From positions 310,001-374,000 of the forward strand of contig NZ_AP018694.1 of assembly GCF_009689585.1 (NCBI RefSeq): a stretch of DNA of 64,000 nucleotides. Direction: 5' to 3'. This DNA comes from Aquipluma nitroreducens. Its GTDB lineage: Bacteria; Bacteroidota; Bacteroidia; Bacteroidales; Prolixibacteraceae. Below are positions 4,187-28,697 of this stretch, one piece after another; position 1 is the stretch's first letter; every line of letters starts with the position of its first letter. The notes under the pieces were generated by a model that was not told the DNA's origin, made no database searches, and saw only the letters and a list, made by a program, of their open reading frames with translations. The position numbers and the translations under genes are program-made.

Positions 4187-4208
4187 TTGCCTCTTTAGCA
4201 ATTGTCGT

Positions 4209-4973: not shown

Positions 4974-4975
4974 GA

Positions 4976-6693: not shown

Positions 6694-6714
6694 TGTGAGT
6701 GTATTTTCAAGATG

Positions 6715-6778: not shown

Positions 6779-6964
6779 CAGTTTCATTATTTTTTATACT
6801 TCTTCCTCACTACAGACTTTTGAGAAAAGGATCAGACTGTAAAACTGTCTTCAGGTCATATTAAGCAACCATTCATCTGGCTGCCGCGGCATTCTTCTAA
6901 TGATTGTGCAACAGAAGAAACCTATTTCTGTCAGTATGGAGGTAATCTTATTGATTCCATGATT

Positions 6965-7183: not shown

Positions 7184-7193
7184 ATTTTTTGTT

Positions 7194-8257: not shown

Positions 8258-8262
8258 GAATT

Positions 8263-10308: not shown

Positions 10309-10630
10309 ATCGCTGGTGATTGGTGATCAGGTTTTGCATGGCTTCTTCGCTACTTCGGATTCGCCTTTCATTTAGCATCCGTTTGATTTCAGCGATGGTG
10401 TAGTATGTTTTCCCCGCTATGACAGAATAGGTGATAGCGCCTTTGGAGCGCAGCCGTTGTAATGTGCGTTGGCTGATATTCAAAAATGAACAGACCTCAA
10501 AACTATCTATCCACTCCTCTTCAGGATTAATCGCGTTGACAGACTGGTATTCTGCGACAAACTGGGCAATCGTATTGATCTTTGCAACCAGTTCTTTGTA
10601 TGCCTTCGATTCAACTGTTATGACTTCCAT
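10271..10630 (-). CDS. Helix-turn-helix protein, excisionase-like
   Basis: 119 residues. The segment EEWIDSFEVCSFLNISQRTLQRLRSKG contains an HTH_17-type helix-turn-helix, followed by the wing KTYYTIAEIKRML. It is similar in layout to the protein at 7949-8257, so the primase is flanked by two related DNA-binding proteins. It is likely the first gene of the block HTH, primase, HTH. A role in excision or replication control is inferred from family and context. Confidence 0.82.
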   Translation of the reverse strand: MEVITVESKAYKELVAKINTIAQFVAEYQSVNAINPEEEWIDSFEVCSFLNISQRTLQRLRSKGAITYSVIAGKTYYTIAEIKRMLNERRIRSSEEAMQNLITNHQRYVEQRRVAKANK

Positions 10631-10891
10631 AAAAATAACTTACTGATTAGCAGCAAACTTCAGCAAAATAGGGATTGCTGATATGGAAGTCGGTGTGGAT
10701 TTTCTTGAAATTATTTTTATGAGCTTAATTACAACTATTTACAAATCAACTTAAGTAAGAAGAAAGTATGTAGTAGTTGTGGAATACTCGGTATTATGGG
10801 AATATGAAGGTTATAACTTGATTTCATCTGGAATCGACAGTAAAATTGGATGTCAAATTGATTAAATACAGAGTAATACCGAACTCTGTAT

Positions 10892-11725
10892 TTATTGATT
10901 CCTGCCCATACGCCGTAGTAAGGCATTTTTTAGTTTATCGAGAAAAGGAGTAGGGTTCGTGCGAATCTTCATATCACTAAATGCACGTGACAGGTTCTTA
11001 TCGAGTCGAATATTGAAAACGTTCTGAATGTAATCGGATAGTTGCGTGAGTGGCACGTTTCCAAAGGTACTGGCAGTGTCCCAGGAATAGAGTTGCTCCA
11101 TCAGTTCTGTTTTAGTCCCTTTCCATGTTAGTTTAGTTGATGGAAAATAGAAAGAACCAAGTTTTGAGGTACTGTTATCTAGTAATTCCAATTCCTGCAT
11201 CAAGTATGGTAAGAGCATATCATTCGCCAATATTTTTGCAACCTTGAAATCACAGATGGTGCAAAAAACTGGATCAAGTTCGTAATAAAATGTTTCCAAG
11301 TACTGCTCCGTGAACAATTTGCCTCTTAAAAAATACAAGGAATCCAAATGAGTGGATCCTGAACGGTAGTAACGTATAAAATCTAATCGTTTTGTTGTAT
11401 ACCTATTAATTGCATTCAGCTCTTTGTTCAAATATACTTTTTGAGCGTCAACACCTGCCATTGGCCTGTTCATCTCTATGTTATAAATTTTACGGTAATA
11501 AATCAATCGATAACAGAACTTCGGCTTAATATCTTTAAAAAATATAATTTCCTCTTCTTCATCTTTAAAAGTGTAAGCCAAAACGAACACCTTCAATCGA
11601 TTGAATGCCTCTCCGAGAACCTGGGAACCAGCCAATGACCTTTTTAATATGTTCTCCTCAGAAGATTCTATCAGTTCAATTTTTGCATCAACCTCTTTTT
11701 TTAGGTTGGCTATATATTCAATCAT
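10892..11725 (-). CDS. rteC: RteC family regulator of conjugative element excision
   Basis: 277 residues. The C-terminal half, with KLTWKGTKTELMEQLY, LTQLSDYIQNVFNI and TPFLDKLKNALLRRM, is the RteC signature. In CTnDOT, RteC activates the excision operon. The N-terminal half is helical. No RteA/RteB two-component pair is seen here. A gap of about 260 bp separates it from the downstream helix-turn-helix gene, so it may have its own transcript. Its presence, with the tra genes, identifies the region as a CTnDOT-like integrative element. Confidence 0.9.
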   Translation of the reverse strand: MIEYIANLKKEVDAKIELIESSEENILKRSLAGSQVLGEAFNRLKVFVLAYTFKDEEEEIIFFKDIKPKFCYRLIYYRKIYNIEMNRPMAGVDAQKVYLNKELNAINRYTTKRLDFIRYYRSGSTHLDSLYFLRGKLFTEQYLETFYYELDPVFCTICDFKVAKILANDMLLPYLMQELELLDNSTSKLGSFYFPSTKLTWKGTKTELMEQLYSWDTASTFGNVPLTQLSDYIQNVFNIRLDKNLSRAFSDMKIRTNPTPFLDKLKNALLRRMGRNQ

Positions 11726-12906: not shown

Positions 12907-13575
12907 TTAAAAACTGGAAATGGTCAGATTATAAATTACATCTACTGGAAGTCCATTAAAAGAATTAATTAGAATATCAGCCTTGCTTAAATCCTGATTG
13001 CCTGAATTTGGATTCATATAGCCAATACATTTCATATTTGCACTTTTTGCAGCAGAAACGCCATTAAATGAATCTTCAATTACAATACATAACTCTGGAG
13101 GGACTTGTAATCTCTCAGATACTTTCAGAAATATTTCGGGACTTGGTTTCCCTTTTTCAACATTTTCTCCACTTATTGTCAAATGGAAATATTTTTTGAG
13201 TTCAAAACAGGAAAGGATATAATCAATTTGTTCGTGTGGTGAAGACGATGCCAGTGCCAATAAAAAATTATTTTTATGTAAATCTGAAATTAATTCTGAA
13301 ACATAGGGAATTGGCTGAATGTGAACTTCCTGTCTCAGGTATTCCATATAAAGCTTTTTTTTAAGTTGAATGACTTCCGGTATTTTGATTGGTAAATCAT
13401 ACTTGCTTCCAAGCCAGGACCACCATGTTTCGTCCGTTGTTCCCATAAATGCATTATGCTCATCCTCGGAGACATTGATTCCTAATAATTGAAACATCTT
13501 TCTCTCACATTTCTGATGAATCGGTTCACTGTCAATAATTACCCCGTCCATATCAAAAATTACACACTTTTTCAT
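12907..13575 (-). CDS. HAD superfamily phosphatase, beta-phosphoglucomutase-like
   Basis: 222 residues with all four HAD motifs: DMDGVIIDSE near residue 8 (nucleophile Asp plus second Asp), LASSSP (motif II Ser/Thr), KGKPSPEIF (motif III Lys) and IEDSFNGVSAA (motif IV Asp). The alpha-helical cap between motifs I and II is that of subclass IA, as in phosphoglycolate phosphatase, sugar-phosphate phosphatases and beta-phosphoglucomutase. The substrate cannot be told. It stands alone, about 200 bp from its neighbour. Confidence 0.88.
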   Translation of the reverse strand: MKKCVIFDMDGVIIDSEPIHQKCERKMFQLLGINVSEDEHNAFMGTTDETWWSWLGSKYDLPIKIPEVIQLKKKLYMEYLRQEVHIQPIPYVSELISDLHKNNFLLALASSSPHEQIDYILSCFELKKYFHLTISGENVEKGKPSPEIFLKVSERLQVPPELCIVIEDSFNGVSAAKSANMKCIGYMNPNSGNQDLSKADILINSFNGLPVDVIYNLTISSF

Positions 13576-13770
13576 TTTAACGGTTTTTGTATATTTTGAT
13601 TCTATGAGTTATTCAAGAAGTATTGATTGCGATATGATGCTATAAGAAGACAATCTTAATCAGCTTCCTGTTATGACTATAAAGCAGAATGGTATGTTGC
13701 AATACAACATGCCTCAAATGTAATATATTGCTTGTTGAAAGTGAATTTCATTCTCATAGTATTAATAGGT

Positions 13771-14937
13771 TTATGTGGAGCCAATCCAAGTCATTTTATG
13801 CCAAATGGTTTCAAGAGGTCCGTGATTAAAACGATTGATCCAACAAGAACTAAAGAAACCCTCCAGCATTGCTAATAAAATACCGATAAATAATGAATAA
13901 GTTGCTCCGGCATATTGATATAAGCCCAATCCAAATCCATAATAAATAAAGGAACCAATTATAGACATCATAATATAGTTCGACAAACTCATGCGACCAA
14001 TAGATGAAAAACTGTTTAATAATTTATAAAAAAAATCAGTTTGAAAAAGCAATACGAAACCAGAAACCATTACCAGCATAAATGCCATATTTGTCCACGA
14101 AGTTTCAATAGTCACTATTGGACTTCGAATAGCTTTGTTACTAATCCAACTATTTAATCCTTCTTTAACAGTAAACAACAGAAGAAATAACATAAAAGAA
14201 ATAATTATAGTTCTGAACCAAAAACGTTTACTTTCAATAGAAGCGACAAATACCGATTTGCGGCCAGCCAACATTCCGAGCATAAATAATGATAAAGTCT
14301 GAAATATCCTCCCGTTTTCCCATGTCCAGTAAAAAACGGCAGTTTTTCCATTAGTCAGATTCCCTATCCATGTTTCTATCAATGAATTGCCTGTAATATA
14401 TTCGCCCATTTTATCAAAATAAAACCATGAAGCCGGATCAACTATTTTGATATCCGGATTTTGAACCGCTAAAATAAAATTAATCCATTCATAAGGCTGA
14501 AACATTAAAACTAGTGCGATCCAAAATACGGCTTTATCATTAAGTCTGGCTACAGGAATCAAAAAGAGTCCGATGACAGCATAATCAGTAAGAATATCTC
14601 CCTGATAAAATGCCGAATTAATAAGGCCAAAAATAAACAACAGGAATAGTCTCCACACAAATCTCGCTCTGAAATCTTTTCCTTTTATTTCTTGGTTATT
14701 TGACTGGATAAAGAATGTTAATCCAAAAAGCAAAGAGAAGATAGCATATGATTTTCCACTAAATAAGAAAAACAGGCTTTTCCATATTCCACTGTCGAAT
14801 GTTCGGATCCAATTTGGCAAATTCGAAGGAAGGTAATATAAATCATAATGTTCAATATTATGCAACAATATAATCGACACGATGGCAAAACCTCGCAAGG
14901 CATCAACTACCTGAAGACGGGGGACGGTTGAACTCAT
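13771..14937 (-). CDS. DUF418 family membrane protein (YeiB-like)
   Basis: 388 residues with about ten hydrophobic segments. It starts with RLQVVDALRGFAIVSIILLHN, the acyltransferase-3/YeiB type opening, and ends with the DUF418 region (SFSSIGRMSLSNYIMMSIIG, then GPLETIWHKMTW). Function in this family is unsettled; some members are thought to be transporters or acyltransferases. Its start lies 42 bp from the end of the APC permease gene, so it is probably the last gene of the DegT operon. Confidence 0.85.
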   Translation of the reverse strand: MSSTVPRLQVVDALRGFAIVSIILLHNIEHYDLYYLPSNLPNWIRTFDSGIWKSLFFLFSGKSYAIFSLLFGLTFFIQSNNQEIKGKDFRARFVWRLFLLFIFGLINSAFYQGDILTDYAVIGLFLIPVARLNDKAVFWIALVLMFQPYEWINFILAVQNPDIKIVDPASWFYFDKMGEYITGNSLIETWIGNLTNGKTAVFYWTWENGRIFQTLSLFMLGMLAGRKSVFVASIESKRFWFRTIIISFMLFLLLFTVKEGLNSWISNKAIRSPIVTIETSWTNMAFMLVMVSGFVLLFQTDFFYKLLNSFSSIGRMSLSNYIMMSIIGSFIYYGFGLGLYQYAGATYSLFIGILLAMLEGFFSSCWINRFNHGPLETIWHKMTWIGST

Positions 14938-14979
14938 AATTTCATAGTTAAAAATTTATGTAAAACTTAATTCTGGATT

Positions 14980-16371
14980 TCAAGCCTGCGTGAAATCCAT
15001 CATCACCGTTGCCTTTCGAAAACCTTTGGTTCTTATGGTTAGGTAAATAGTCCCAATCAGCATCCACCCCCCACCAATTAGGAAGGTATTTAAAGGAAGG
15101 TTCAGCCAAATGATCAGGCAGATCACAAACCCGATAGCCGGAGGAAGGAAGTCCTGAAAAAAGCCTTTTGCTGTCTTGACGTCTGCCTTGAAATAATATT
15201 CACGCATGGAGGCAATATTTACTCCCATAAAAGCGAAGAAAGCGCCAAAATTTATCAGTCGCGCGCATTCTTCATAATTGAGCAGCAAGGCGCCAAACAA
15301 GGCCAATCCACCTACAAAAAGAACATTATAACTGGGTACGGCTGTTTTCTTTCCCAAATGGCCAAATATCTTTTTAGGGATCACGTTGTCCCGACCCATC
15401 CCGTAAAGCAACCGGCCTGCACCCAATTGTCCCGTTATGCCCGAACCCACGCTTCCCACCAACAGGATTGCCGACAGTAATCCATCCAATAAAGGCCCGC
15501 CAGCCCTGTGGGCCACCGACATTATTGCCGTATCCAATGCGTTATTACGAGCAGCATCATCAGTCAGTCCATTGGTGAATGAAGTCCAATCGGGCCATGA
15601 AATTTGGGCCAGGTAAACCTGCGCTCCACTCCATATTCCCGTGATCAGGCAAGTCATTACTGCCGCGATCAACACATTACGTCTTGGATTTTTTACTTCT
15701 TCGGAAAGGGTCGTCAATCCGTCAAAACCAATATAAGTTAAAGCTGCCAAAGCCGTCGCCGGACCAATGGCACCAAATGAGAAGGTTTCAGGATTATAAA
15801 AGGGACGCGAGGAAAACAATCCACCTAAGCCTTCTTTTAAAAAAACAAAACGAATAGCGGCAGCCATGAAATAGAAAACGACCACGCTCATAACAATCAT
15901 CAAAATCCAGTTTGCCCTGGCTGCCACTATGATCCCCCTCAGGTTCAAAGCCGTAAACCCAATAACAAAAAAGAATATCCAGAAATAATATGGAATAAAA
16001 GGCATCAGGTGATTGGCCGTTATACTGGTGAAAATAACGCAGAGGATCGGGATAAACATATAATCCATAAACATTGACCAGCCAGCGATAAAACCCAGGT
16101 AAGGATTAATGCTTCTTCCAACATAGGTGTAGGCCGAACCTGCTGCCGGGTAACGGTTTGCCATTCTTCCGTAACTGATTGCTGTAAAAATCATGGCCAC
16201 CATAGCCACAAGAATTGTGGTCACCGCGTGCCCTTTTGAAATATTGTTGGCATGGCCAAACAAGGGCAAAGCCGCAACCGGCTGGATCAGGATAATTCCG
16301 TAAATAACCAGGTCGCTTAGCGATAGGACTCGTTTGAGTTTTACTTCGGAGTTTGAGTTTGCAGCAGTCAT
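14980..16371 (-). CDS. APC superfamily permease
   Basis: 463 residues, about twelve membrane helices. The N-terminal VLSLSDLVIYGIILIQPVAALPLFG and the segment YTYVGRSINPYLGFIAGWSMFMDY are typical of amino acid-polyamine-organocation transporters, as is TALAALTYIGFDGLTTLSEEVKNPRRN. The substrate is likely an amino acid or amine. It is 22 bp downstream of the Gfo/Idh/MocA gene in the same operon, which suggests uptake of a nitrogen-containing compound processed by its neighbours. That link is inference. Confidence 0.88.
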   Translation of the reverse strand: MTAANSNSEVKLKRVLSLSDLVIYGIILIQPVAALPLFGHANNISKGHAVTTILVAMVAMIFTAISYGRMANRYPAAGSAYTYVGRSINPYLGFIAGWSMFMDYMFIPILCVIFTSITANHLMPFIPYYFWIFFFVIGFTALNLRGIIVAARANWILMIVMSVVVFYFMAAAIRFVFLKEGLGGLFSSRPFYNPETFSFGAIGPATALAALTYIGFDGLTTLSEEVKNPRRNVLIAAVMTCLITGIWSGAQVYLAQISWPDWTSFTNGLTDDAARNNALDTAIMSVAHRAGGPLLDGLLSAILLVGSVGSGITGQLGAGRLLYGMGRDNVIPKKIFGHLGKKTAVPSYNVLFVGGLALFGALLLNYEECARLINFGAFFAFMGVNIASMREYYFKADVKTAKGFFQDFLPPAIGFVICLIIWLNLPLNTFLIGGGWMLIGTIYLTIRTKGFRKATVMMDFTQA

Positions 16372-16393
16372 TTTAGTTCTTTTAGATTAAATA

Positions 16394-17536
16394 CTACTTC
16401 ACTTCCGCCCAACTTCGATTTTCGACTGACCGCTCAACAGCTTCAAGTACTTCCTGGCTTTTTACGCCATCTTCAAAGCTCGGACTAAACGGAGTATTGT
16501 CCACAATTGAGCGAATAAATTCTGCTACTTCAATCACAAATGAATCAGCGTAGCCAATGCCATGTCCCTGGGGCCACCATCCGCCATTGTACGGGTGAAC
16601 ATCATGTGTGGCATTAATTTTTCTGAACCCGGCTTCCTGTGGCCCTTGTGTGTTATCGTAGAACATCAGGTAATTCTGATCTTCAAAATTCCAGAAAATC
16701 GAACCTTTTTCACCGTTGATTTCAATCGTGTTGTAATTTTTACGGCCGGTAGCCAAACGGGTCGATTCAAAGCACCCGGTAGCTCCGCCTTCGAAATTAA
16801 CCAAAAATTGGGCTACATCGTCAACGGTCACCATTCCTTTGGGCCCATTGGGATTATTGCCATCCACCGGGCGTTCCTTGATCAGTGTTTGCAGGTTGCC
16901 ACTCACTTCCTTAAAATTCAAACCTGTTATAAAACGGGTTGCATCAACTGAATGGGCGCTCAGGTCGCCTAAAGGCCCTGAGCCTGCGATCTTTTTATCG
17001 AAACGCCAGACCATGGCAAAATTTGGGTTCGTGATCCAGTCTTGCGCATAGCGAACAAATACATGGTAAATGCGTCCGATGCGGCCTTCCTGAACCAATT
17101 GCCTTGCCAACGCCAGTGACGGTGTGAAACGGTATGAATAGCCACAACAATGTTTGACACCTGCTCGTTTTACGGCATCCAACATTTCCCGGGCATCTGC
17201 AAGGTTATTGGCCAGGGGTTTTTCACAAAGCACGTGCTTCCCGTTTTTTGCGGCTTCAAGAGCAATTTCTTTATGCAGAAAATTGGGTGTGGCAATGCTG
17301 ATTAAATCAATGTCATCACGGGTAACAACTTTGCGCCAGTCGGTTTCAATTTCTTCCCAACCAAATTTATCGGCAAATATCTGTAAATTTTCGGGTGAGT
17401 CTTTAGCGCACAGGCATTTCATAACAATCTTGGCCGGGGTTCCTGCCCACATTTCCGCATTTTTAAATGCATTGGAGTGCGCTATTCCCATAAACTGGTG
17501 GCCGATTAAGGCAACGCGTATTTCTCTTTTTAACAT
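16394..17536 (-). CDS. Gfo/Idh/MocA family oxidoreductase
   Basis: 380 residues. An N-terminal Rossmann domain contains IGHQFMGIAHSNAFK and the conserved HVLCEKPLANN, whose Lys is the Gfo/Idh/MocA catalytic-site lysine. The C-terminal alpha/beta domain includes GDLSAHSVDATRFITG and carries an aspartate-histidine pair. Such enzymes oxidise or reduce sugars and inositols with NAD(P), often at C3. It lies between the aminotransferase gene (gap 173 bp) and the permease. With the DegT enzyme it could interconvert a keto-sugar and an amino-sugar. Confidence 0.9.
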   Translation of the reverse strand: MLKREIRVALIGHQFMGIAHSNAFKNAEMWAGTPAKIVMKCLCAKDSPENLQIFADKFGWEEIETDWRKVVTRDDIDLISIATPNFLHKEIALEAAKNGKHVLCEKPLANNLADAREMLDAVKRAGVKHCCGYSYRFTPSLALARQLVQEGRIGRIYHVFVRYAQDWITNPNFAMVWRFDKKIAGSGPLGDLSAHSVDATRFITGLNFKEVSGNLQTLIKERPVDGNNPNGPKGMVTVDDVAQFLVNFEGGATGCFESTRLATGRKNYNTIEINGEKGSIFWNFEDQNYLMFYDNTQGPQEAGFRKINATHDVHPYNGGWWPQGHGIGYADSFVIEVAEFIRSIVDNTPFSPSFEDGVKSQEVLEAVERSVENRSWAEVK

Positions 17537-17709: not shown

Positions 17710-18894
17710 CTACTTGCAAACTTCTGTGAATTGTTTAGCCGCGGCCTCAATTTCAGCATCAGTTGAGTTGATGTTGATTCCCCAGCCTGCTCCAAGGCCA
17801 CCGTCAACAACCCCAATACTAATATTCATGGAACGGCTTAAAATATCATCGGTTTTTGGGTACGAACCTTTTGTATGAGGCTGTCCAACTTCTTTCAGAT
17901 GCCCCAAAACATGTTCCATATTTGCATATACGTGCCATCCGCTCTGATCGATGGTTTTGGAACCCAATGCTTTTGACACTTTCACGGCCAGTTCCCGTGT
18001 ATCAAAAACTATGGTACAAAGGGTTGCCGCATCCCCTTCCGGATCGTTTAGCACGCGGAATTTGAACCCTTCAGCCCCGGAAATCAGGCTTTTCAGTTTG
18101 TTCTTTTTCTCTCGCAACACGGCAACAATCTGGTCAAGTTTCCTCAACTGAGCCAAACCGGCAGCGCCTGTAATTTCATTCATTCGAAAATTTAAACCAA
18201 GCACACTACGGGCGCCTACTTCAACCCCGAAACGGTTGGGTTTGTGCCCCTGGTCATGAACGCCAAATGCTGTTTCGTAAAGTTTTTGGTCATTGGTAAC
18301 CACCAACCCGCCGTCACCACTGTTGATTGTCTTGAAAACATTCAGCGAGAAAGCCCCTATGTCACCGATTGTACCCACTTTTCTTCCTTTGTATGAAGCG
18401 CCTGTGGCTTGGCAACTGTCCTCAAGAACCTTCAGGTTATGTTTGCGGGCAATCTCCATAATTCTGTCCATATTACATGGGTTCCCGAGCATGTGAACCG
18501 GAATAATGGCTTTTGTCCGTGGAGTAATCCTGTGTTCAATGTCCTCAGGATCCATTGAAAGACTTTCATCAATTTCAGTTAAAACAGGTACCAGACCTGC
18601 GAAAATACATGTGGAATAGGTTGCAACAAATGTATAAGCCGGAACGATTACTTCGTCGCCTGGTTTCAGATCTAATGCAATTAGCGAAACAAGCAGCGAA
18701 GAAGTTCCCGATGATGTTGCCAAAGCGTGGTTTGCCCCGCAGTAGCTGGCAAATTCACTTTCCAACGTTGAAACTTTGTGCAAAAATTTAGGATCGTTTT
18801 CACTTCCGTAGCGGAAAAGGTAACCACTTTCCATGACTTCCATTACTGCATCTTTTTCTTCTTCTCCATACCAATAAGCTCCCGGACCTGGCAT
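17710..18894 (-). CDS. DegT/DnrJ/EryC1/StrS family sugar aminotransferase
   Basis: 394 residues, PLP-dependent fold type I. Visible are the conserved TSSGTSSLLVSL phosphate-binding region, VPAYTFVAT, the PLP-stacking EDSCQATGA and the Schiff-base lysine in SLNVFKTINSGDGG. The family usually adds an amino group to keto-sugars, but reversal is possible. A strong ribosome-binding sequence (AAGGGAGG) precedes the ATG at 18894. The promoter region carries the 38-bp box shared with both GH3 genes (19025-19062). It is the first gene of the DegT, Gfo/Idh, APC, DUF418 unit. Confidence 0.9.
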   Translation of the reverse strand: MPGPGAYWYGEEEKDAVMEVMESGYLFRYGSENDPKFLHKVSTLESEFASYCGANHALATSSGTSSLLVSLIALDLKPGDEVIVPAYTFVATYSTCIFAGLVPVLTEIDESLSMDPEDIEHRITPRTKAIIPVHMLGNPCNMDRIMEIARKHNLKVLEDSCQATGASYKGRKVGTIGDIGAFSLNVFKTINSGDGGLVVTNDQKLYETAFGVHDQGHKPNRFGVEVGARSVLGLNFRMNEITGAAGLAQLRKLDQIVAVLREKKNKLKSLISGAEGFKFRVLNDPEGDAATLCTIVFDTRELAVKVSKALGSKTIDQSGWHVYANMEHVLGHLKEVGQPHTKGSYPKTDDILSRSMNISIGVVDGGLGAGWGININSTDAEIEAAAKQFTEVCK

Positions 18895-18996: not shown

Positions 18997-19063
18997 CAAT
19001 GATAAGCGTTAAGCCAAAGGCGGACAATGTCTGGAAACGCAAATGACATATCCAAATAGGCAA
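18997..19063 (-). promoter_or_regulatory. Conserved 38-bp box A plus promoter of the DegT operon
   Basis: The box at 19025-19062 matches box B (28660-28697) at 30 of 38 positions. An extended alignment of 19004-19063 with box C (62031-62090) is gap-free at 48 of 60. The core reads GCAAATGACATAT on the plus strand. On the minus strand the edge TTG (19025-19027) is followed after 20 nt by TATCATTG (18997-19004), fitting the Bacteroidetes -33/-7 spacing with one mismatch. The predicted start of transcription is near 18990, leaving a leader of about 95 nt. Likely an activator site for the divergent AraC-type protein. Confidence 0.7.
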
Positions 19064-19089: not shown

Positions 19090-19134
19090 TAATGGCTAAT
19101 AGCGATGCAATGTTGTATATATAAAAAATGGATC

Positions 19135-19992
19135 ATGGAAGTATATAAGGAAGAATTATCAATTGAAGTCGCTGAAATAAAGATGATGATGGATTTGCTT
19201 TCAAACCTGTTTTCAATTAGGGCATCTCTTATTTATGCCATCAACGAAGAACAATATACCAATGAAATTGCAGGCAATAATGGCGACTATCAAGATTTTT
19301 GTAAGCTAATCCAGTTAGAACTAAAACACAAATGTATTGCCTGCGACCGTGATAAATTTAAGGAGGCAAATAAAAAGAAAGAGCCACTGCTATACCGGTG
19401 TTACAATGGATTATACGAAATGTACCTCCCGCTGCTCATCGACAACTATTTGATCGGATATCTACATTTCGGCCAGGTAAGAGCAGAAAAGGATTTTAAA
19501 GTAATTGCTGATGAGTGTTCCCTCCATGAACATTCCCGGATTGCGGATATCGAAAAAAGTTACAATTCCATGATCTTTATTGAAAAGGAGAAACTTATAT
19601 TGATTTCAGCGCTTTTCCAGCAATTTGCCGATATAATCCTCAAAAACAAACTCGTTGAACTTAAGAAGGCAAAGCCTGAATATTACCTCAGAAAATATGT
19701 GGAAGAAAACCTGGACAAACCTATTGATGTAAATTCGGCCGCTGAATTTATCGGGATGAGCATATCATTTGTTACGCACAAATTTAAAGAGATTTATGGT
19801 ATATCTTTTCATGAATACCTAAGTCGTGCCCGAATTGACCGTTCGAAAAAACTCTTACAAAAAAATTCCATTTCAGAGACATTCCTAAAATGCGGGTTTA
19901 ACAACCGCTACCACTTCAGCAAAGTATTTAAAAAAATTGAAGGGGTTACTCCACATGAATTCCAACTTTCATCCAATTTTACAGGCCAGTAA
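19135..19992 (+). CDS. PocR-domain AraC family transcriptional regulator
   Basis: 285 residues from the ATG at 19135 (MEVYKEELSIEV); an upstream ATG at 19105 would add ten atypical residues. The N-terminal half resembles the PocR sensory domain (CKLIQLELKHKCIACDRDKFKEA with a Cys pair, then LYEMYLPLLIDNYLIGYLHFGQV). The C-terminal 95 residues are the two AraC helix-turn-helix units (DVNSAAEFIGMSISFVTHKFK and ETFLKCGFNNRYHFSKVFKK). PocR domains bind small ligands, typically polyols or hydrocarbon derivatives. It is the only carbohydrate-type regulator in the window and lies next to box A. Confidence 0.9.
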   Translation: MEVYKEELSIEVAEIKMMMDLLSNLFSIRASLIYAINEEQYTNEIAGNNGDYQDFCKLIQLELKHKCIACDRDKFKEANKKKEPLLYRCYNGLYEMYLPLLIDNYLIGYLHFGQVRAEKDFKVIADECSLHEHSRIADIEKSYNSMIFIEKEKLILISALFQQFADIILKNKLVELKKAKPEYYLRKYVEENLDKPIDVNSAAEFIGMSISFVTHKFKEIYGISFHEYLSRARIDRSKKLLQKNSISETFLKCGFNNRYHFSKVFKKIEGVTPHEFQLSSNFTGQ

Positions 19993-20001: not shown

Positions 20002-20098
20002 AAAATGAATATCCGGTTGTATGCCCAATCGTTGTCCCGGAAGCCTGCCTGCGGCGGGCAGGCTTTCAGAGCCAGGTATTCAAAAGGATATTCATTTT
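20002..20098. repeat. 97-bp MITE-like element or complex bidirectional terminator
   Basis: Terminal 13-bp perfect inverted repeats (AAAATGAATATCC at 20002-20014 and its reverse complement at 20086-20098) enclose a GC-rich hairpin (AAGCCTGCC at 20041-20049 with GGCAGGCTT at 20057-20065). The element is flanked on both sides by AATC (19998-20001 and 20099-20102), as expected for a target duplication. It lies between two convergent genes, and its right end reaches the stop codon of the CBM9-like gene, so it may also terminate both transcripts. Confidence 0.55.
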
Positions 20099-20897
20099 AA
20101 TCAAAATAAATTTGACCAAAATATTCAGGGCGATGGTAGTCAGGAGTTTTTGTGTGTACCGGATTCCAGGAAAGATAATGTGGAGGGGAAGTTTTATCGC
20201 CGCATTTATAAAAATTTGCAGTGGCTTTCACCCCATCCAGCTTTTTTATATCGCTGTAAACAAAACACGAAACTGGAATGATAACCAAGAGTTTCCAATT
20301 ATACGACCCCGTCCTTTCTTCAAATGGTTGGTTTCCCAACGAAGGATCAACCCGAACTGCATCAAGTATTTTGGGATCAATATTTTTTCTATTATTCCGG
20401 TCCGGCCCATATGCCACATGTTTGGTGCCAATACAATTGATCTCAAAATTGTAGTAATTCACGTGATCAAGCGACAAAAAAAACTCTACACAACTATCCT
20501 CATGGACACTCCCATTTGTTCGAGCCACTACGCCCCTGATCGATTTTTCAGAAACGTAATATTCCAACCAAATTTCGGTACCTGTATGGCCAATTCGAAA
20601 CCCTACCTTTGGCCGGTAATTGAAAACATCCCAGTTTAATACATCCACAGTATGCTCCTGAGTTTGTGCCTCGAGAAGAAAACGAGCCTCTTTCAATGAG
20701 GTGTTTTTACCAGTGTCAATCTTTTTTACAACAAGTTTCTTTCCATCATCCTGTGCTTCTATTGCTTTCATACAATTATTGGCTCTATTTCTAACTGGGT
20801 CCGTCCTTATTTCGCTGTACAGATTTTGCCCAATGGACAAACTTAAAACCAAGGCTGCAAATAGGATGGGCAATCTCAGCTTATTAATTTTTCCCAT
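20097..20897 (-). CDS. Exported CBM9-like domain protein
   Basis: 266 residues with an N-terminal signal peptide or anchor (LRLPILFAALVLSLSIG). The body from about residue 75 is the carbohydrate-binding family 9-like (DOMON-type) fold: FNYRPKVGFRIGHTGTEIWLEYYVSE, EDSCVEFFLSL, YYNFEINCIG and the ending RPEYFGQIYFD. Such proteins are common in Bacteroidetes glycan loci but the ligand is usually unknown. Its last codon touches the 97-bp repeat. It lies about 90 bp beyond the deaminase gene. Confidence 0.8.
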   Translation of the reverse strand: MGKINKLRLPILFAALVLSLSIGQNLYSEIRTDPVRNRANNCMKAIEAQDDGKKLVVKKIDTGKNTSLKEARFLLEAQTQEHTVDVLNWDVFNYRPKVGFRIGHTGTEIWLEYYVSEKSIRGVVARTNGSVHEDSCVEFFLSLDHVNYYNFEINCIGTKHVAYGPDRNNRKNIDPKILDAVRVDPSLGNQPFEERTGSYNWKLLVIIPVSCFVYSDIKKLDGVKATANFYKCGDKTSPPHYLSWNPVHTKTPDYHRPEYFGQIYFD

Positions 20898-20990
20898 ACG
20901 ATTGGTTTTTCAATTTAATAGCGTGTAACTTACTTATCACTGTTTACTTTCATGCCAATCACCAAAGTGGCACAAAACACCATAAAACAA

Positions 20991-21731
20991 TCACGACATT
21001 CTTTCCCGGATTTCCGAAGCAGCAGGTAAATCAAGAAACAAGAAAGCTTGTGGGTGGTTACGCATGATACTTGCCGGAGTTGCCGGTGAAATTTCGCCGT
21101 AAATGGTATTGAATACTGCCTTTGCCTTACGGGCATCGGGAACGCTGCAAATGATGGCGCCCGATTTCATGATCTGTTTGATCGACATGCTGATAGCTTG
21201 TTGGGGAACATCGTCGATAGTCGGGAACCAGCCTTCGCCCATTTGCTGGCGGCGACAATCTTCGTCCAGATTGACAACAAGGTAAGCCTTGTCGGTTTCA
21301 AAATCGGCAGGCGGATCGTTAAACGCTAAGTGGCTGTTTTCGCCAATACCCACAAAAGCCACATCAATCGGGTGTTTTCCGATCAGCTCGCCCAGGCGGG
21401 CACATTCTTCATACGGATTGACACTGCCATTCACGTAAATAAATTCTTTCGGGGAAACAATATCCACGAACCGTTCTTTCAGATATTTGCGGAACGATGC
21501 AGGGTGCGTTTCAGGTATCCCGATGTATTCATCCAGATGAAAGCCGGTCACCACTGACCAGTCAATATCTTCTTTGACCAGTTCGCCGAGCATCTCGAAC
21601 TGGGATGCCCCCGTGGCGACAATGATATTTGCTTCGCCTCTTTCAAGGATAGCTTTCCTGATTAATTCAGCGCCCCGTTGGGCTGCTTTTTGACCAAGTT
21701 CCTGCTTGGTTTCTGAAATTACTATTTCCAT
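20991..21731 (-). CDS. nagB: NagB-like glucosamine-6-phosphate deaminase family protein, variant active site
   Basis: 246 residues of the NagB/6-phosphogluconolactonase fold. FHLDEY (64-69) carries the conserved catalytic Asp67. The GIG-x-D-G-H-x-A-F-N-E loop of classical NagB reads [12 protein letters not shown] here: Asp becomes Asn132, His134 is kept and the Glu becomes Asp139. It may be a deaminase with altered rate or a related isomerase acting on another amino-sugar phosphate. The gene ends 93 bp before the CBM9 gene starts and begins 14 bp after nagA ends, so it is translated from the nagA mRNA. Symbol is by context. Confidence 0.75.
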
Positions 21732-21745
21732 AATTTGATAGTTGG

Positions 21746-22942
21746 TTATTGATTATTTGAATATACTTCCTCACCTGCCAATAATGTTTTCTGAATCACA
21801 ATCCTGCCGTCCTCAATGGTGAACAGGATCAGGTCGGCGCGTTTGCCTTGTTTTATTTCTCCAATATCCTTCAACCCAACCAACCTTGCCGGATTGACAG
21901 TTGCCATCTGAATGGCATTCTCCAGGCTACAACCCGTAAATTTCATCATGTTCGAAACGCAGGACACCAGAGGGCTTGCGGCTCCGGCCAGCACATTTTC
22001 TGCCGGGAATTTGACCACGTCTGGCGTCAAAACAACGACCCTTTCCACACGGGTGTATTCGCCGGGCGGAAGGCCGGCAAGATCCAAAGCGTCCGACACC
22101 AGGATGGTTTTATCCAGTCCCTTCATTTTATAAAAGCACTGCACTTCTTCTTTGTTCAGGTGAAACCCGTCGGCAATAATGGATATGGCAATCCTGTCGT
22201 CGGCCAATTGCGGCCAGATCGGGTTATTGTGCCTGTCAATCATATTGGCACATCCGTTTCCAAGGTGGGTCGCCATTGATGCCCCGGATTCGGCAGCCTG
22301 TTGAATGTCTTTGGTCGAACCGTTGTGGTGCCCCAAAGCCACCACCACTCCAATTTCGGCGCATTTTTCAATAAACGCAATGGCCCCATTCACTTCCGGA
22401 GCCATGGTTATCAGTTTGATGCGGCCACGGGCAGCTTTTTGCAGTTCCGCAAACTCGTCCCAATCGGGTTGCCGGATATACTTTTCCAGGTGTGCGCCCC
22501 GGTACCCCTGAACAGGCGAAATGTAAGGTCCCTCCAGGTGGAAGCCAGGCATTGACTTTCCGGTTTCCTGATCATCAAAGATTACCGAAAGCAGCGAAAA
22601 ACTCTTTTTCAGACTTGCCTGTGAATTCGTAATTACTGTAGGAAGAAAAGTGGTAACCCCAACCCTCCACAGCGCTTTTGTTGCCTTCCGAAGGTCGTCG
22701 ATGGTTATTTCCTGATCAGAGAAATCGATGCCTAAAAAGCCATTGATCTGGATATCAACCAACCCAGGCGCAATATATTGACCTTTTGCATCGATCCCGG
22801 TTGCTCCTGCTACCTCAAGGTCACCTTCAGCAACCGTTTCAATATTACCTTCACGTATAATAACCGTGGCATTTTTAATAATACCTGACGGAACTACAAC
22901 CCGACCGTTATATATCTTCAACAAGCTATTATCCGAACCCAT
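21746..22942 (-). CDS. nagA: N-acetylglucosamine-6-phosphate deacetylase
   Basis: 398 residues, amidohydrolase fold. [16 protein letters not shown] opens the barrel; FHLEGPYIS holds the metal-binding Glu; ALGHHNGS and ATHLGNGC hold the two metal-binding histidines; VSDALDLAG holds the catalytic Asp. All key residues are present, so the enzyme should remove acetyl from GlcNAc-6-phosphate or a close relative. It lies 14 bp before the NagB-like gene and 21 bp after the MFS permease, forming an amino-sugar catabolic set. Confidence 0.92.
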
Positions 22943-22963
22943 AATTTTCTTAAGTTTTACGTT

Positions 22964-24304
22964 TTATGCCAATACTGTTTCTTTCAACGACCAGCGCTTG
23001 ATTCGATAGCCGTACCAGGCGTAATAAATCAGGTAAATATAACATGGCAAGAGCACCCAGTATGCAGCACGGGGATTGTAAAGGTCAGCAAAATACCCGT
23101 AGATAAGCGGTACTATAGCGCTTCCGCTTAATCCCATAACCAGGATCGATCCCCCCATTTTTGTAAACCGCCCCAATCCGTTGAGCGCCAAAGGCCAGAT
23201 CGTAGAATACATCAATGAATTGGAAAGGCCTAAAATCACCAAAACCCATATTGATAGGTCTGTAGTATGGTCAAGGAAATTTACCTGCCCGTGTGCGACG
23301 AAAAACAACAGGGTTAGCACTGCGGCCGATGTAGTACAGATACGCAGTACACGGAGATGGTTAATAAATTTTGGAATGAGCACAATGCCCGATAAAAACC
23401 CAAACATCGTGATGCCCAAGATATACGACGGGAAGACTTTTGCTTCCAATAATGGTAAACCCAACGATTGGGCATAACCAATGATGGTGTTGATCCCGAC
23501 AACCTGCGATCCTACATGGAGAAATATGGCCACTCCTCCCAATATAAGATGCGGAAATTGAACAATGCTGGTCTTACTTGAATTTGCACCAGCAACAGCA
23601 GGATTTTCAGTATTGGTATCTATTTCAGGCAGGATGGAATACCTGATCATCAGGCCTAGTCCGAAAAGGATAACTGCCATAACCGAATAAGGAACAATCA
23701 CTCGTCGAACCAACTCATCCAGGGCAGCATTTCTTGTTACTTCGTCCATGAGTGGCAACTGTTTGAATAGCTCGGTGTCGGTCGGACGGAGGATTGCAGC
23801 AGCCAATAATAACGGGGCAATGATTCCCGCAGATTTATTACATACGCCCATGATACTCATCCGCTGTGCAGCCCTTTCTTTCGAGCCGATCATGGTGATG
23901 TAAGTGTTGCCTGCTGGCTGCAATATAGACAGGCCTGTTCCAATGGAGAAGAGACCCAAAAGGAATATCCAATAAGTACGGGTCAGCGCGGCAGGCACAA
24001 AAATCAGGGCGCCAAGGGCCATGATCCAGAAACCGATCATGATCCCCTTTTTAAAACCAACTTTCTCCAACAAGTGTGCTGCTGGTATGGACATGACAAA
24101 ATAGGCGATGTAAAAAGCAAAGGCGACCAATAACGACAGGGCATTATTCAGTTCGCACGAAATTTTAAAATACGGTATCAATATCGCGTTGATCCAGGTT
24201 GTAAACCCGAAAATAAAAAACAATAAGGCAATGATTATTATGGATATAACTGTATCGCGTGTGGACAATGAACCGGCATGTACTACTTCTATCTTTTTTC
24301 TCAT
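22964..24304 (-). CDS. FHS-type MFS sugar permease
   Basis: 446 residues, twelve membrane helices. The N-terminal FFIFGFTTWINAILIPYFKISCELN and the first-loop motif AHLLEKVGFKKGIM are typical of the fucose-galactose-hexose (FucP/GluP) family seen in Bacteroidetes glycan loci. The likely substrate is GlcNAc or a related amino-sugar, as the next two genes are nagA and nagB; this is inference. Gap to nagA is 21 bp, and the beta-helix gene ends 78 bp upstream. Confidence 0.9.
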   Translation of the reverse strand: MRKKIEVVHAGSLSTRDTVISIIIIALLFFIFGFTTWINAILIPYFKISCELNNALSLLVAFAFYIAYFVMSIPAAHLLEKVGFKKGIMIGFWIMALGALIFVPAALTRTYWIFLLGLFSIGTGLSILQPAGNTYITMIGSKERAAQRMSIMGVCNKSAGIIAPLLLAAAILRPTDTELFKQLPLMDEVTRNAALDELVRRVIVPYSVMAVILFGLGLMIRYSILPEIDTNTENPAVAGANSSKTSIVQFPHLILGGVAIFLHVGSQVVGINTIIGYAQSLGLPLLEAKVFPSYILGITMFGFLSGIVLIPKFINHLRVLRICTTSAAVLTLLFFVAHGQVNFLDHTTDLSIWVLVILGLSNSLMYSTIWPLALNGLGRFTKMGGSILVMGLSGSAIVPLIYGYFADLYNPRAAYWVLLPCYIYLIYYAWYGYRIKRWSLKETVLA

Positions 24305-24382
24305 GATCCTAAGAAACTGTTTAAATGTCTATTGAACCCTCTTCGGTAATCCAATTTTTATTGACCACCGCTCTTGAGTTCA

Positions 24383-26101
24383 TTATTTAGCGGAACGGTT
24401 GATATTTTCAGTCGTTTTTCCATCAATAAGCAAGTCCGTTTCACAATTTTTAATCGTGTTGTTCCAGAACCAGACGTCACTGCAATTCTTCAGACTGACA
24501 CAAATCGATTCATTTTCGAATAGGTTGTCATGGATACGGATATCACGCATTAGACCCGACAGGACTTCAGAAGGCTTCCCTAATTTATCCGGATTGGTCC
24601 AACTGGCAATACTGATTGCCATATCCATCCTTTGTCCGGCAAAACGCATTTCTAGATGGTTGTCCCTAAACGTGCAATTCCTTATTTCAACATGCTGTGG
24701 ATTGGTAGACTCGAGCCAATAGCCCCAGCTCCATTCTCCGCCTATGTGGATTCCTGCAACGTTATTTTCAAACAAACTATTCTCGATCAATGTGTTGGAT
24801 GATTTCAGTAATACGCCGAACCTGCCTGTACTCCGATAAACAGAGTTTGTGATGTGGAATGAATCCGGCAGCCATTCCTGCGGTTCTACCGGGGTTTTTT
24901 CATGGACCCACTCCGGAACCGGATCAGCAAAGGTTATCAGCATATCCCTGTCATCAGGGACACAATCTACAACCCTCGAGCGCCAGGCTGGATGGAACTG
25001 ATCATCGAGCAAAACCACTTCCTTGCCGGACGTCAAAATGGTCCTGCCAGCATGAACTAGTAGTTGCTTGTCAGATTTCTTTTGTGCCACCGCAAGCCAG
25101 TCCCCATGTATGTTTTGCCCATCGTCTCCCAAGCATCCTTCGATATGTATCCCATCCATCAGCACTTTTCCAGAAGCACAATGGATTTTGAACCCATCGC
25201 GACATACAGTGGCTATCCGGTTTCCTTCAGGTTTAATACTTACCTTACGGTAGGTAATATTGTGGCAAAAGTTGTTGGTAATAGGAAACCCATGTCCATT
25301 CAAAACATGTACATTTTCCAATAAAAGGCCATTGATGCCCCTGAAACTAAGTATCGACCCGGTATAATTTCCCTGGAACCAGAAGACCCCATCGCCCACC
25401 TGGCACGACTGTGCCAGCGCTTTAAAGTTCATCGTCATATTCCTGCTATTTTTGTTCCCCGAAACGTACCATTGAGGGAGATTGGAATCCCAGGTTAGAC
25501 GAACAATCTTCGCTTTACGTGCTTCAAAATCATACAGCCCCATGATATAAGCTTTTTGTCCATCGACAACCGGATGACCTTGAAGCACTTCGATAGTGAC
25601 GGCGTCTCCATTTATTGAAATAACTTTGCCAGCCGAATAATAATAAGGCGCCAGGTCAACGGCAATATTACGCATGGTAAGATTGGAACCACGTTCAACA
25701 GATAGCATCGCTGGCTGTCCTTCCTTAAGGTCGTTGTCCTTCACCCAGAATGTCGCCGGGTTACCCTGACCATCAACTTCACCGGTTAATTCCAAATCGG
25801 AAACATCGTGCAATGAAATATAGCAGGTGCTTTTCCCTCTTTCTGAATCTTCCCAGCCGGAGAGCCCTTTGAACTCATAAACACCGGCATCAAAACGTAC
25901 TGAATGTATGCCTTTCGTCTTTGCATGTTCAATAGCAGCCATGATCGATTTTGAGTCATCTTTGCCGTCTCCGGGCACCGCACCGAATTCTGCCACGCGA
26001 ACTTCAACAGGAGCAATTGAAGATGAACTCATAAAAAAAACAACAAGAAAAATACTTATCAGGGGTAAATTTCCAAATAGTTTTTTGTAGTTGGTTTTCA
26101 T
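24383..26101 (-). CDS. Right-handed beta-helix protein, GH110-like or pectate-lyase-like
   Basis: 572 residues with a signal peptide (ISIFLVVFFMSSSSIAPVE). The start VRVAEFGAVPGDGKDDSKSIMAAIEHA is the standard beginning of pectin-lyase-fold beta-helices. From about residue 250 come parallel beta-helix repeats (VKVLMDGIHIEGCLGDDGQNIHG, then RYTSNTLIENSLFENN-like turns). The DDGQNIHG stretch resembles the paired-Asp site of GH110 alpha-galactosidases. A GH110-like activity is therefore possible, but other beta-helix families fit. It lies 36 bp downstream of GH3 number 1 in the same direction. Confidence 0.7.
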   Translation of the reverse strand: MKTNYKKLFGNLPLISIFLVVFFMSSSSIAPVEVRVAEFGAVPGDGKDDSKSIMAAIEHAKTKGIHSVRFDAGVYEFKGLSGWEDSERGKSTCYISLHDVSDLELTGEVDGQGNPATFWVKDNDLKEGQPAMLSVERGSNLTMRNIAVDLAPYYYSAGKVISINGDAVTIEVLQGHPVVDGQKAYIMGLYDFEARKAKIVRLTWDSNLPQWYVSGNKNSRNMTMNFKALAQSCQVGDGVFWFQGNYTGSILSFRGINGLLLENVHVLNGHGFPITNNFCHNITYRKVSIKPEGNRIATVCRDGFKIHCASGKVLMDGIHIEGCLGDDGQNIHGDWLAVAQKKSDKQLLVHAGRTILTSGKEVVLLDDQFHPAWRSRVVDCVPDDRDMLITFADPVPEWVHEKTPVEPQEWLPDSFHITNSVYRSTGRFGVLLKSSNTLIENSLFENNVAGIHIGGEWSWGYWLESTNPQHVEIRNCTFRDNHLEMRFAGQRMDMAISIASWTNPDKLGKPSEVLSGLMRDIRIHDNLFENESICVSLKNCSDVWFWNNTIKNCETDLLIDGKTTENINRSAK

Positions 26102-26137: not shown

Positions 26138-28597
26138 TTATTCCTTCACTTCAAATTCTCCTTTCAGCCGAATATCTTCTGACGAGCTTCCCACCATCAC
26201 GCGGAAAGTTCCCGGCTCTACTACCCAGTGCATATCCCCGTTAAGAAGTGCCAGGTCTTTGGGAAGAAGCCTGAAAGTTACCGTTTGTTTTTCTCCCGGT
26301 TCAAGTTTTAGTTTTTTGAAACGTTTAAGTTCTTTGATGGGTGTGGTAACACTGCTTAAAACATCACTGGTGTATAGTTGTACGACCTCTTCCCCACTGC
26401 GGGTACCGGTATTTTTTACGTCGAGGGCTATTTCTGTTTCCCCTCCTGAGAGTAATTGCTGCGGTTGAATTTTAAGGTTACTGTATTCAAATGTTGTGTA
26501 GCTCAGCCCGTACCCGAATTCGTACAGGGGGAGCGCCGACATGTCCTTGTATTGTTCCCATTTGCTTTTGGAATGGTTGTAATATACCGGTAGCTGACCG
26601 GAATGGCGCGGCACCGAAACGGGGAGCCGCCCACTGGGATTATAATCGCCAAAAAGCACTTCTGCAATTGCATTGCCGCCCTGCTCTCCGCACATCCAGG
26701 CTTCTACTATGGCCGGAGAATTTTCGGCAGCCCATCGAACTGATAAAGGCCTGCCATTTATTAGCACAAGAATGGTGGGCGTTCCCGTGGCATGTACGGC
26801 TTCGAGCAGGTTTTCCTGTAGGCCGGTCAAATCCAGGCTGGCCATGTCTCTGCCTTCTCCATTGGTTTCATTTCCGGATTCCCCGACTACCACAATGGCA
26901 ATATCGGCGCTTTTCGCGGCTTTCACGGCTTTGTCGATCTCGTTTAATTTGTCGCCCATAATATCGCAGCCTTTTACATAGGTAATTTTTGTTCCGGGAG
27001 AAACTTTATTCCTGATACCTTCCAGAGGTGTAACAATGTGCTGTGGTATAACCTGCGGGATATAATCGCCCAACTGGTTCATGGGGGCATCTGCGTTCGG
27101 GCCGATCACAGCAATGGAACCCATATTTTTTTTCAGTGGCAAAATGCTCTTATTGTTTTTTAGCAGTACAATCCCTTCTCTGGCGGCTTGCAGTGCAAGG
27201 TCAATGTGTTCTTTGCTGTGGACAATTTTTGTGGCAAAAGCGGGGTCGACATACGGGTTTTCGAACAAGCCCAGTTTGAATTTCAGTTTCAGGATATGCC
27301 GTACTGCGTTATCTATGGCGCTCATTGGGACTTCGCCTTCCTCAACACTTTTAACAAGAGCGCCCATGTAAGCTTCTTCAAGCGAAATACCCACATCAAC
27401 ACCAGCCATTACGGCTATCTGGCCCGCCTTTTTCTGCGTTTTCGCCATGTATTCGCCCCGTATGGTGCTTATGCCGTCACCTTCGCTTAATACTACTCCC
27501 TCAAAACCCATTTCTTCACGAAGCACTTTTTTTAGCAGGAATTCAGAACCATGCGTTACCACATCGTCAACCGCAGGGTATTGGGCCATTACTGAAAGGG
27601 CCCCGCCTTCTTTTATGGCGGTAACCCAAGGGGGCAAGAACACCTGTCGTAGTTTTCTCTCGGAGATTTCCATGGCTCCTCTTTCAAGCCCGCTGGCTGG
27701 TTCGCTTTGCCCGGGATATGCTGTAAATACGGTTACGGCTTTATCATTTTTGGAAATATCGTATCCTTGTATTGCTTCTACAATATTCCTGGCAATTTCA
27801 GAGCACATGTAAGGATCTTCTGAATATCCTTCCTGGTTCCGGCCCATTCTCGGGTCTCTGTTTGGTTCAATTACCAGCGTGGAAAGCATATGGGCGCCAG
27901 TGCCCCTTCCTTCTTTGGCCACTACACTGTAAATATTTTTTACCATTTCCATGTTCCAGGTACTGGCAATGGCCAGGCCTTCGGGGAAAACAGTGCCTCC
28001 CGCGCACATAAAGCCGTGTGTCCCTTCCTCGGTGTTCAGCAGTGGGATTCCCAAACGGGTTTCTTCTACGGCTATTTTTTGGAGTTCGTTAAAAAATTCG
28101 GCTTGTTTTTGTGTGCCTTCATAAACAATCCTGTCAGCAATGGTAAAAAAGCCACCTATCGGTCCTATTTCATCGTTGTGGTTTCCACGGGCAAGTTTTC
28201 TGCACCCTTCCATTTGTTTGGCCCGCTCTTCAGGCGTAAACAGCCTGAAAATGCATTCCATACCTACTTCTACGCCCCACCCAATGCCCTTTTTATATCC
28301 GCAGGGCATGTTCATCTGCCCAACTTTTTCTTTCAGCGTCATGCGCGAAAGCAAGTCGTCTACCCTTTGTTCGATTGGTAGATTAGGGTTCTTGTATAAA
28401 GCAACATTGTCATCCGTGTGCGCAAAATGATTGTATTCCTGATTATTTACTTTTCCATTATTCCTTTCGGTAGATTCCTGAGCGGGTTTAGGCATTTTGA
28501 AAATGAAACTTGACAAAGTTGACCCTATGCCTGTAATACATAGCATCAACAGGAACACCTTCAAGTAATCTATTTTTGTTGATCGCTTATTTATCAT
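26138..28597 (-). CDS. GH3 family beta-glycosidase, copy 1
   Basis: 819 residues: an N-terminal anchor or signal (YLKVFLLMLCITGIGS), a GH3 (beta/alpha) barrel (about 65-430), a GH3 C-terminal alpha/beta domain (about 440-660) and a fibronectin type III-like domain at the end. The recognition segments EEGTHG, EPNRDPRMGRNQEGYSEDP and KLGLFENPYVDP are present. At the predicted nucleophile position the usual Ser-Asp-Trp is Ser-Glu-Gly (Glu372), while Asp374 follows two residues on. Substrate is unknown. The promoter carries box B (28660-28697). Confidence 0.9.
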   Translation of the reverse strand: MINKRSTKIDYLKVFLLMLCITGIGSTLSSFIFKMPKPAQESTERNNGKVNNQEYNHFAHTDDNVALYKNPNLPIEQRVDDLLSRMTLKEKVGQMNMPCGYKKGIGWGVEVGMECIFRLFTPEERAKQMEGCRKLARGNHNDEIGPIGGFFTIADRIVYEGTQKQAEFFNELQKIAVEETRLGIPLLNTEEGTHGFMCAGGTVFPEGLAIASTWNMEMVKNIYSVVAKEGRGTGAHMLSTLVIEPNRDPRMGRNQEGYSEDPYMCSEIARNIVEAIQGYDISKNDKAVTVFTAYPGQSEPASGLERGAMEISERKLRQVFLPPWVTAIKEGGALSVMAQYPAVDDVVTHGSEFLLKKVLREEMGFEGVVLSEGDGISTIRGEYMAKTQKKAGQIAVMAGVDVGISLEEAYMGALVKSVEEGEVPMSAIDNAVRHILKLKFKLGLFENPYVDPAFATKIVHSKEHIDLALQAAREGIVLLKNNKSILPLKKNMGSIAVIGPNADAPMNQLGDYIPQVIPQHIVTPLEGIRNKVSPGTKITYVKGCDIMGDKLNEIDKAVKAAKSADIAIVVVGESGNETNGEGRDMASLDLTGLQENLLEAVHATGTPTILVLINGRPLSVRWAAENSPAIVEAWMCGEQGGNAIAEVLFGDYNPSGRLPVSVPRHSGQLPVYYNHSKSKWEQYKDMSALPLYEFGYGLSYTTFEYSNLKIQPQQLLSGGETEIALDVKNTGTRSGEEVVQLYTSDVLSSVTTPIKELKRFKKLKLEPGEKQTVTFRLLPKDLALLNGDMHWVVEPGTFRVMVGSSSEDIRLKGEFEVKE

Positions 28598-28631: not shown

Positions 28632-28697
28632 CAATATTAAAAGGAGGTGATGTGCCCGTCAATGTCTGAAAGCGCAAAAGGCATGTCTAAATGAGCA
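28632..28697 (-). promoter_or_regulatory. Conserved 38-bp box B plus promoter of GH3 copy 1
   Basis: The box at 28660-28697 matches box A at 30 of 38 positions and box C similarly. On the minus strand TTG (28660-28662) at its edge is followed after 20 nt by TAATATTG (28632-28639), the same spacing as at box A. Predicted transcription start near 28625 gives a leader of about 28 nt. Confidence 0.7.

Follow-up and report, generated by a model that had tools for sequence, protein, structure and literature searches.

A 21-bp direct-repeat box conserved beside PocR-AraC genes as the predicted operator of a DegT/GH3-centred regulon in Bacteroidota

Three 38-bp boxes lie in the same orientation in the 64,000-nt stretch of the Aquipluma nitroreducens chromosome analysed here (contig NZ_AP018694.1, positions 310,001 to 374,000; "the window"). 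All are intergenic by the list of open reading frames, and behind each lies a minus-strand gene that encodes either a sugar aminotransferase of the DegT type or a GH3 protein. Given a PocR-AraC regulator gene immediately beside the first box, the question is whether the boxes are its operator, as a first-pass annotation had predicted in joining amino-sugar and GH3 genes into one regulon. That regulon interpretation is supported by our analysis: judged from sequence, the boxes are very likely the operator of the neighboring PocR-AraC activator, which would overlap -33 and control a glycan regulon centred on DegT and GH3. The features concerned, in window positions, are as follows.

12907-17536, minus strand: genes after DegT in a putative operon (GFO/IDH/MocA dehydrogenase, amino-acid-type permease, DUF418, HAD hydrolase)
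17710-18894, minus strand: DegT/DnrJ/EryC1/StrS sugar aminotransferase, first gene behind box A
18997-19004, minus strand: -7 octamer TATCATTG, 20 nt from box A
19025-19062, minus strand: box A, predicted operator 5' of the DegT gene set (half-sites: distal 19046-19062, promoter-proximal 19025-19041)
19105-19992, plus strand: PocR-AraC regulator, 295 aa, divergent from DegT
20097-26101, minus strand: genes after GH3 copy 1 in a putative operon (beta-helix, MFS, NagA-type deacetylase, GlcN6P-deaminase-like, CBM9)
26138-28597, minus strand: GH3 copy 1, first gene behind box B
28632-28639, minus strand: -7 octamer TAATATTG, 20 nt from box B
28660-28697, minus strand: box B, predicted operator 5' of GH3 copy 1
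59620-61983, minus strand: GH3 copy 2, first gene behind box C
62024-62031, minus strand: -7 octamer TAGAATCG, 20 nt from box C
62052-62089, minus strand: box C, predicted operator 5' of GH3 copy 2

The boxes stand where the first-pass annotation had placed them, and its identity counts were recovered: A and B agree at 30 of 38 positions, as it had claimed, and its figure of 48 of 60 for A and C is in line with a 61-bp alignment of the two at 80% identity. Over the 38 bp, A and C agree at 32 positions and B and C at 26; the best match to box A in 40 Markov-simulated windows reached 22-25 of 38, and B against C alone barely exceeds the simulated maximum of 25. When the window was scanned with a degenerate pattern of the conserved bases, built from boxes A-C themselves and allowing up to three mismatches, three matches (A, B and C) were obtained against 0.02 expected. 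Across the complete 5.7-Mb genome, a 25-bp core pattern with up to three mismatches returned only A, B and C (0 matches for a backward-pattern control), and a nine-box profile, whose training set includes these three, returned them at E 2.1e-7, 2.6e-6 and 2.2e-5, with box C scoring lowest and the next of its 7 matches at E 0.13. The box is thus not found at random in the genome; the box models gave no convincing further site in these 5.7 Mb, and the probability of three random sites falling within the span of A-C is 1.6e-4.

Boxes A and C also have 14 of 20 spacer bases in common, so that one of their promoters may be a copy of the other, and this likeness, with their 32 of 38 box bases, could be taken to mean that the box simply arose when a promoter was duplicated in this genome and has no regulatory function. 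Such an origin is hardly credible for the box as a whole: B has the box and a different spacer, and the box is kept across genera before different genes with unrelated spacers (mean pairwise identity of 31% in the spacer versus 67% in the box, over 14 sites), a cross-species footprint that already contradicts it. Nor do the boxes reflect a recent duplication of the GH3 promoter, since B and C are the least alike pair and each GH3 protein is clearly closer to relatives elsewhere than to the other copy. Across sites, then, a conserved box is followed by an unconserved spacer and a conserved -7; three pairs have 14 of 20 spacer bases in common, namely A and C, two sites in the family genome G071, and those of the family genomes G097 and G047.

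Read on the strand of the genes, the box consists of two 17-bp half-sites, roughly TGCnTnTTyaGAYATtG, arranged head to tail every 21 bp, a direct repeat absent from the first-pass annotation; towards DegT, box A reads TGCCTATTTGGATATGTcatt and then TGCGTTTCCAGACATTG. When 7 boxes were compared with themselves at shifts of 8-26, identity was 58% at 21 bp and no other shift exceeded 36%; between the halves of the 12 gap-free boxes, agreement is 57%, as against 29% with permuted columns (p = 3e-4, a value that applies to the 21-bp shift as one chosen among 19 shifts). The boxes of loci L010 and L011, described below, are 1 bp shorter. Palindromic structure was rejected, pairing being at most 36% at every centre. 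Within each half, information peaks at two motifs set about one helical turn apart, TGC and GAYAT; a dimer of the AraC type, in which each monomer has two HTH motifs, would read such a pattern. The box thus has the form of an AraC-family operator, with two direct-repeat half-sites about 21 bp apart; E. coli AraC at I1-I2 of araBAD is a comparable case of repeat spacing.

The promoter-proximal half-site ends in TTG. Promoters of the primary sigma factor in Bacteroidota have the consensus TTTG at -33 and TAnnTTTG at -7, and the first-pass annotation was correct in seeing, at A, B and C, a TTG supplied by the box edge and a -7 octamer 20 nt on, that of box C being the weakest of the three (4 of 5 scored bases). 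The same constant geometry holds beyond these three. Scored on TA...TTG, at least 4 of 5 bases are present at offset 20 in 12 of 13 sites (9 of the 10 that lie outside the window), against a -7 background of 2.3% over 1,807 other positions; at offsets 8 to 35 other than 20, at most 3 of the 13 sites have a -7. For these and the spacer counts, L011 was excluded as a near-duplicate of L010; box G71b was ended one base later than its match to profile model R1 (gap-free 38 columns), and it is this shift that gives it a spacing of 20 nt. The sole failure is a spirochaete site with TATACT at offset 20, which we read as a sigma-70-like -10. A Bacteroidota-type -7 lies exactly 20 nt on at 13 of 15 sites when the 13 scored sites are joined by G047, picked among weak matches with its -7 in view, and by a further genome of the order, G455; the G047 octamer is TAATATTG, perfect and 20 nt from the box, and that of G455 is TTAATTTA, with 3 of 5 bases. 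As a control, 36 weak box-model matches were scored, 29 of them inside open frames of at least 150 aa, and 2 reach 4 of 5 -7 bases at 20 nt, namely that of G047 and a match in the spirochaete. All six boxes outside the training of R1 (four in G071, one each in G097 and G047) have TAnnATTG exactly 20 nt on. Most of the sites therefore have a -7 at a fixed distance from a -33 TTG, as in a Bacteroidota primary-sigma promoter.

From this geometry a mechanism can be proposed. A ligand would bind the cytoplasmic PocR domain of the regulator, and the two AraC-type DNA-binding domains of the dimer would occupy the two head-to-tail half-sites, which at 21 bp, or two helical turns, would lie on one face of the DNA. 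The terminal TTG of the promoter-proximal half-site would serve as the -33 element, touched by the proximal subunit in the manner of class II activation; with TTG as -33 and TAnnATTG as -7 after 20 nt, the ligand-bound regulator would recruit RNA polymerase, and would switch on the DegT-MocA-permease set and the two GH3-led sets of this genome. Operator binding and transcription activation, as expected of the AraC family, are what we infer from the conserved geometry. A half-site overlapping -33 is also in a position to occlude polymerase, and PocR-AraC could instead be a repressor that blocks polymerase there until released by ligand. We think this unlikely. Repressor sites usually tolerate movement, whereas the 20-nt spacing is fixed at 13 of 15 sites, as class II activation needs. 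Returning to activation, the position of box A between DegT and the regulator gene means that the protein may also feed back on its own gene; TAnnTTTG-like octamers were seen by eye on the regulator side, at a distance from the box of 10 nt in L006, 19 nt in the window and 27 nt in L007, so that autoregulation is no more than a guess.

The regulator itself has a PocR sensory domain at residues 20-181 (PF10114, 77.7 bits against a cut-off of 23.9) and a C-terminal AraC-type double HTH at 213-287 (HTH_18 at 62.5 bits and HTH_AraC at 54.8 bits, both above cut-off), and it matches AraC and MarA chains in the PDB. Pfam at E <= 1e-4 gave only PocR and AraC-type HTH models, with none of the sensor, histidine kinase or receiver domains of a hybrid two-component system (HTCS). 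Its open reading frame starts at 19105, and several relatives begin at the residue equal to 19135 here. The HTH residues SxS..TH and NRYHF are invariant in 8 aligned proteins.

A contig search with the regulator yielded 8 loci: seven with nearly full-length relatives (39-73% identity) and L013, matched over the HTH only at 23% identity and excluded from the seven. The box lies 5' of the regulator gene in the window as well as in six of the seven, which answers the call of the first-pass annotation for a scan of relatives: it recurs in other genera. Boxes were found by profile in L006 (Bacteroidales), L007 (Prolixibacteraceae) and L009 (Cyclobacteriaceae). Those of L010 (Flammeovirgaceae), L011 (Cytophagales) and L012 (the spirochaete, with a 39%-identical protein) were recognised by eye in upstream DNA before entering model R1; the gap-free profile had missed L010 and L011, which are near-duplicates with almost the same DNA at the box, and had scored L012 low. 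At the seventh locus, L008 (genome G528), which has a 72%-identical regulator, no good box was found by any of the models (best E 0.30, 0.22 and 0.04). There the PocR-AraC gene is flanked by two pieces of GH3, one N-terminal and the other reversed (L008:8360-11169), an arrangement that is either a real inversion or a chimeric metagenome contig. Two further observations were made in passing. Near a contig end of G146, a genome with the longer relative as well, a second fragment (G146:C23:76348-76677, L052) is 72% identical to the HTH part of the regulator; and in the spirochaete a weak second box-like match (G532:C15:57403-57431, L046) has 4 of 5 -7 bases 20 nt on.

The box might, however, be the operator of a different AraC-type regulator, with PocR-AraC merely adjoining it. 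A second AraC-family gene with an AraC_binding domain lies about 57 kb away, beside a sugar transporter and near an integrase (G000:C1:385570-386445, L113:11570-12445; G000 is the genome of the window), an HTCS elsewhere would be another candidate, HTCS motifs in Bacteroides having the same 21-bp layout, and G097 and G455 have boxes with no PocR-AraC detected. Against this, in a comparison confined to PocR-AraC, 6 of 7 other loci, from two phyla, retain the box 5' of a relative of this protein, and we consider a different regulator very unlikely. The neighboring PocR-AraC protein thus remains our preferred regulator for the gene sets below.

The order DegT-MocA-permease recurs in L006 and L007, with HAD as well in L007. 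The L006 box leads DegT-MocA-permease-GH3-ceramidase-like, and those of L009, G097 and G047 each lead DegT-GH3. DegT and GH3 are the recurrent core of the regulon, although two DegT types occur among the box-led sets, with 34-35% identity between types, and the divergent neighbor of the spirochaete regulator is an Fn3 protein, not DegT. G071 has one box at a DegT set and four boxes on another contig:

G071 box (a): leads a protein without assignment, a ceramidase-like protein and DUF6786
G071 box (b): leads a GH78 rhamnosidase and a PFL-like enzyme
G071 box (c): leads, on the same strand, TIM-barrel, beta-helix, unassigned, MocA, amidohydrolase and GH3 genes
G071 box (d), contig C30:307434-307471 (L057:11434-11471): leads an ECF sigma factor, FecR, a SusC-like receptor and SusD

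The GH3 protein behind box (c) is 79% identical to GH3 copy 2 of the window; immediately 5' of the relative of GH3 copy 1 in G071 there is no box. The first-pass annotation had proposed that hits before susC or other glycan operons would favor its reading, and in G071 the box does stand 5' of an ECF-sigma/FecR/susC/susD locus and of glycan genes. Its place before an ECF sigma factor suggests a two-tier control cascade. GH78, GH106, GH88 and NagA-type genes nearby suggest that the substrate may be a glycan containing rhamnose and amino sugar. A weak sixth match in G071 (C30:301116) was dropped, having no -7 at 20 nt.

We then compared the distribution of regulator and box. Among the 140 genomes of the family, the regulator was found at E <= 1e-40 in G000, G047 and G071 and the box at E <= 0.01 in G000, G071 and G097; model R1 found the four boxes in G071 and the one in G097 having been trained without them. 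The box of G047 is weak (E 0.26 with R1, 0.10 with R2). Its contig ends inside a GH3 and the regulator contig begins in the later part of a GH3, so that box set and regulator probably form one operon. G097, whose assembly is 85% complete, has the box and no regulator at E <= 1e-40. Among 393 sampled genomes of the order, 2 have the regulator at E <= 1e-30 and 11 have box matches at E <= 0.01; the 2 regulator genomes score at least 27 bits and the other nine 17-22 bits, and no box above 22 bits was found outside the 2. Since the model was trained with the boxes of those 2, which match by construction, the informative part is the 391 others without strong boxes. Among 395 sampled genomes of the phylum, the regulator was found only in its own genome; it is rare.

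The matches in the nine other genomes of the order were treated as chance; except in G455, they lie in open frames (139 aa in G237, at least 278 aa in the others), and none has a -7 at 20 nt (that of G521 was scored at its R2 coordinates). The G455 match (G455:C241:14473-14510, L059) is a moderate one, before an enolase-superfamily gene and two MocA-type genes, at E 0.001 with R1 and 9.6e-7 with R3, better than the spirochaete site; no regulator was found in G455 at E <= 1e-30, and the box is due either to chance or to a related regulator.

The surroundings of the cluster bear on how it came to be here. To its left are genes for a coupling protein, relaxase, TraG, TraJ, TraM, DUF4138 (TraN-like) and RteC:

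Window 21-11725, and chromosome G000:C1:299577-309296: conjugation genes, left of the regulon
Chromosome G000:C1:386512-387888: tyrosine integrase with arm-binding domain, right of the regulon

Since conjugation genes and integrase enclose them, regulon and regulator are probably cargo of a conjugative element, which we take to be CTnDOT-like. This reading fits the absence of the regulator, at E <= 1e-40, from the other sampled genomes of the genus. The ends of the element were not found; a search for att sites gave one 17-bp repeat, possibly a chance one, at chromosome positions 281966 and 389072, and the window and the flanks examined yielded no tRNA gene.

How far the system is new depends on what is compared. 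AraC-type HTCS motifs of Bacteroides are reported to be direct repeats of two conserved sites at an average distance of 21 bp (PMC3878776), and the present system shares with the HTCS an AraC-type DNA-binding domain, a direct repeat of about 21 bp and glycan utilisation genes in Bacteroidota; the likeness of the motifs is one of layout. Unlike an HTCS, the regulator is a PocR-AraC protein of 295 aa, and the domain search gave no sensor-kinase or receiver domain in it. Salmonella PocR, the 1,2-propanediol activator, is likewise of the AraC family, and gave the PocR sensory domain its name. Of its two boxes at Pcob, one measures 20 bp and the other 48 bp, with 52 bp between them, and the second lies 9 bp from -35 (PMC11264322); this layout differs from the two 17-bp half-sites every 21 bp seen here. 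The regulator scores 94.2 bits against the 500-bit cut-off of the NCBIfam PocR equivalog NF047788, well below it. In E. coli, I1 and I2 of araBAD adjoin the polymerase site (PMC8151288); AraC offers a parallel in its two half-sites beside the polymerase site and in ligand-dependent activation, predicted here, and differs in sensory domain and sequence. The first-pass annotation had held that no such operator was described. This stands for the motif, the regulator and the regulon, and only for these, because the direct-repeat layout is already published for AraC-type HTCS regulators; among the papers listed by our searches of the open-licence literature, none concerned a Bacteroidota PocR regulon.

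Taken further, and held only tentatively, the locus may be a self-contained glycan regulon on a CTnDOT-like conjugative element, in which a PocR one-component sensor would replace an HTCS with the same operator grammar and in some hosts command an ECF-sigma/FecR/SusCD locus as a two-tier switch. The conserved core, a DegT sugar aminotransferase and a GH3 hydrolase, would then mark a catabolic pathway, so far uncharacterised, for a glycoside that contains amino sugar. What the analysis adds on PocR-type regulators in Bacteroidota is a predicted operator at sequence level, together with the protein likely to act on it and a regulon followed across species. The motif should help to find other genes of the regulon, and hence its substrate, and the recurring pairing of DegT and GH3 under the same box points to a directly testable pathway.
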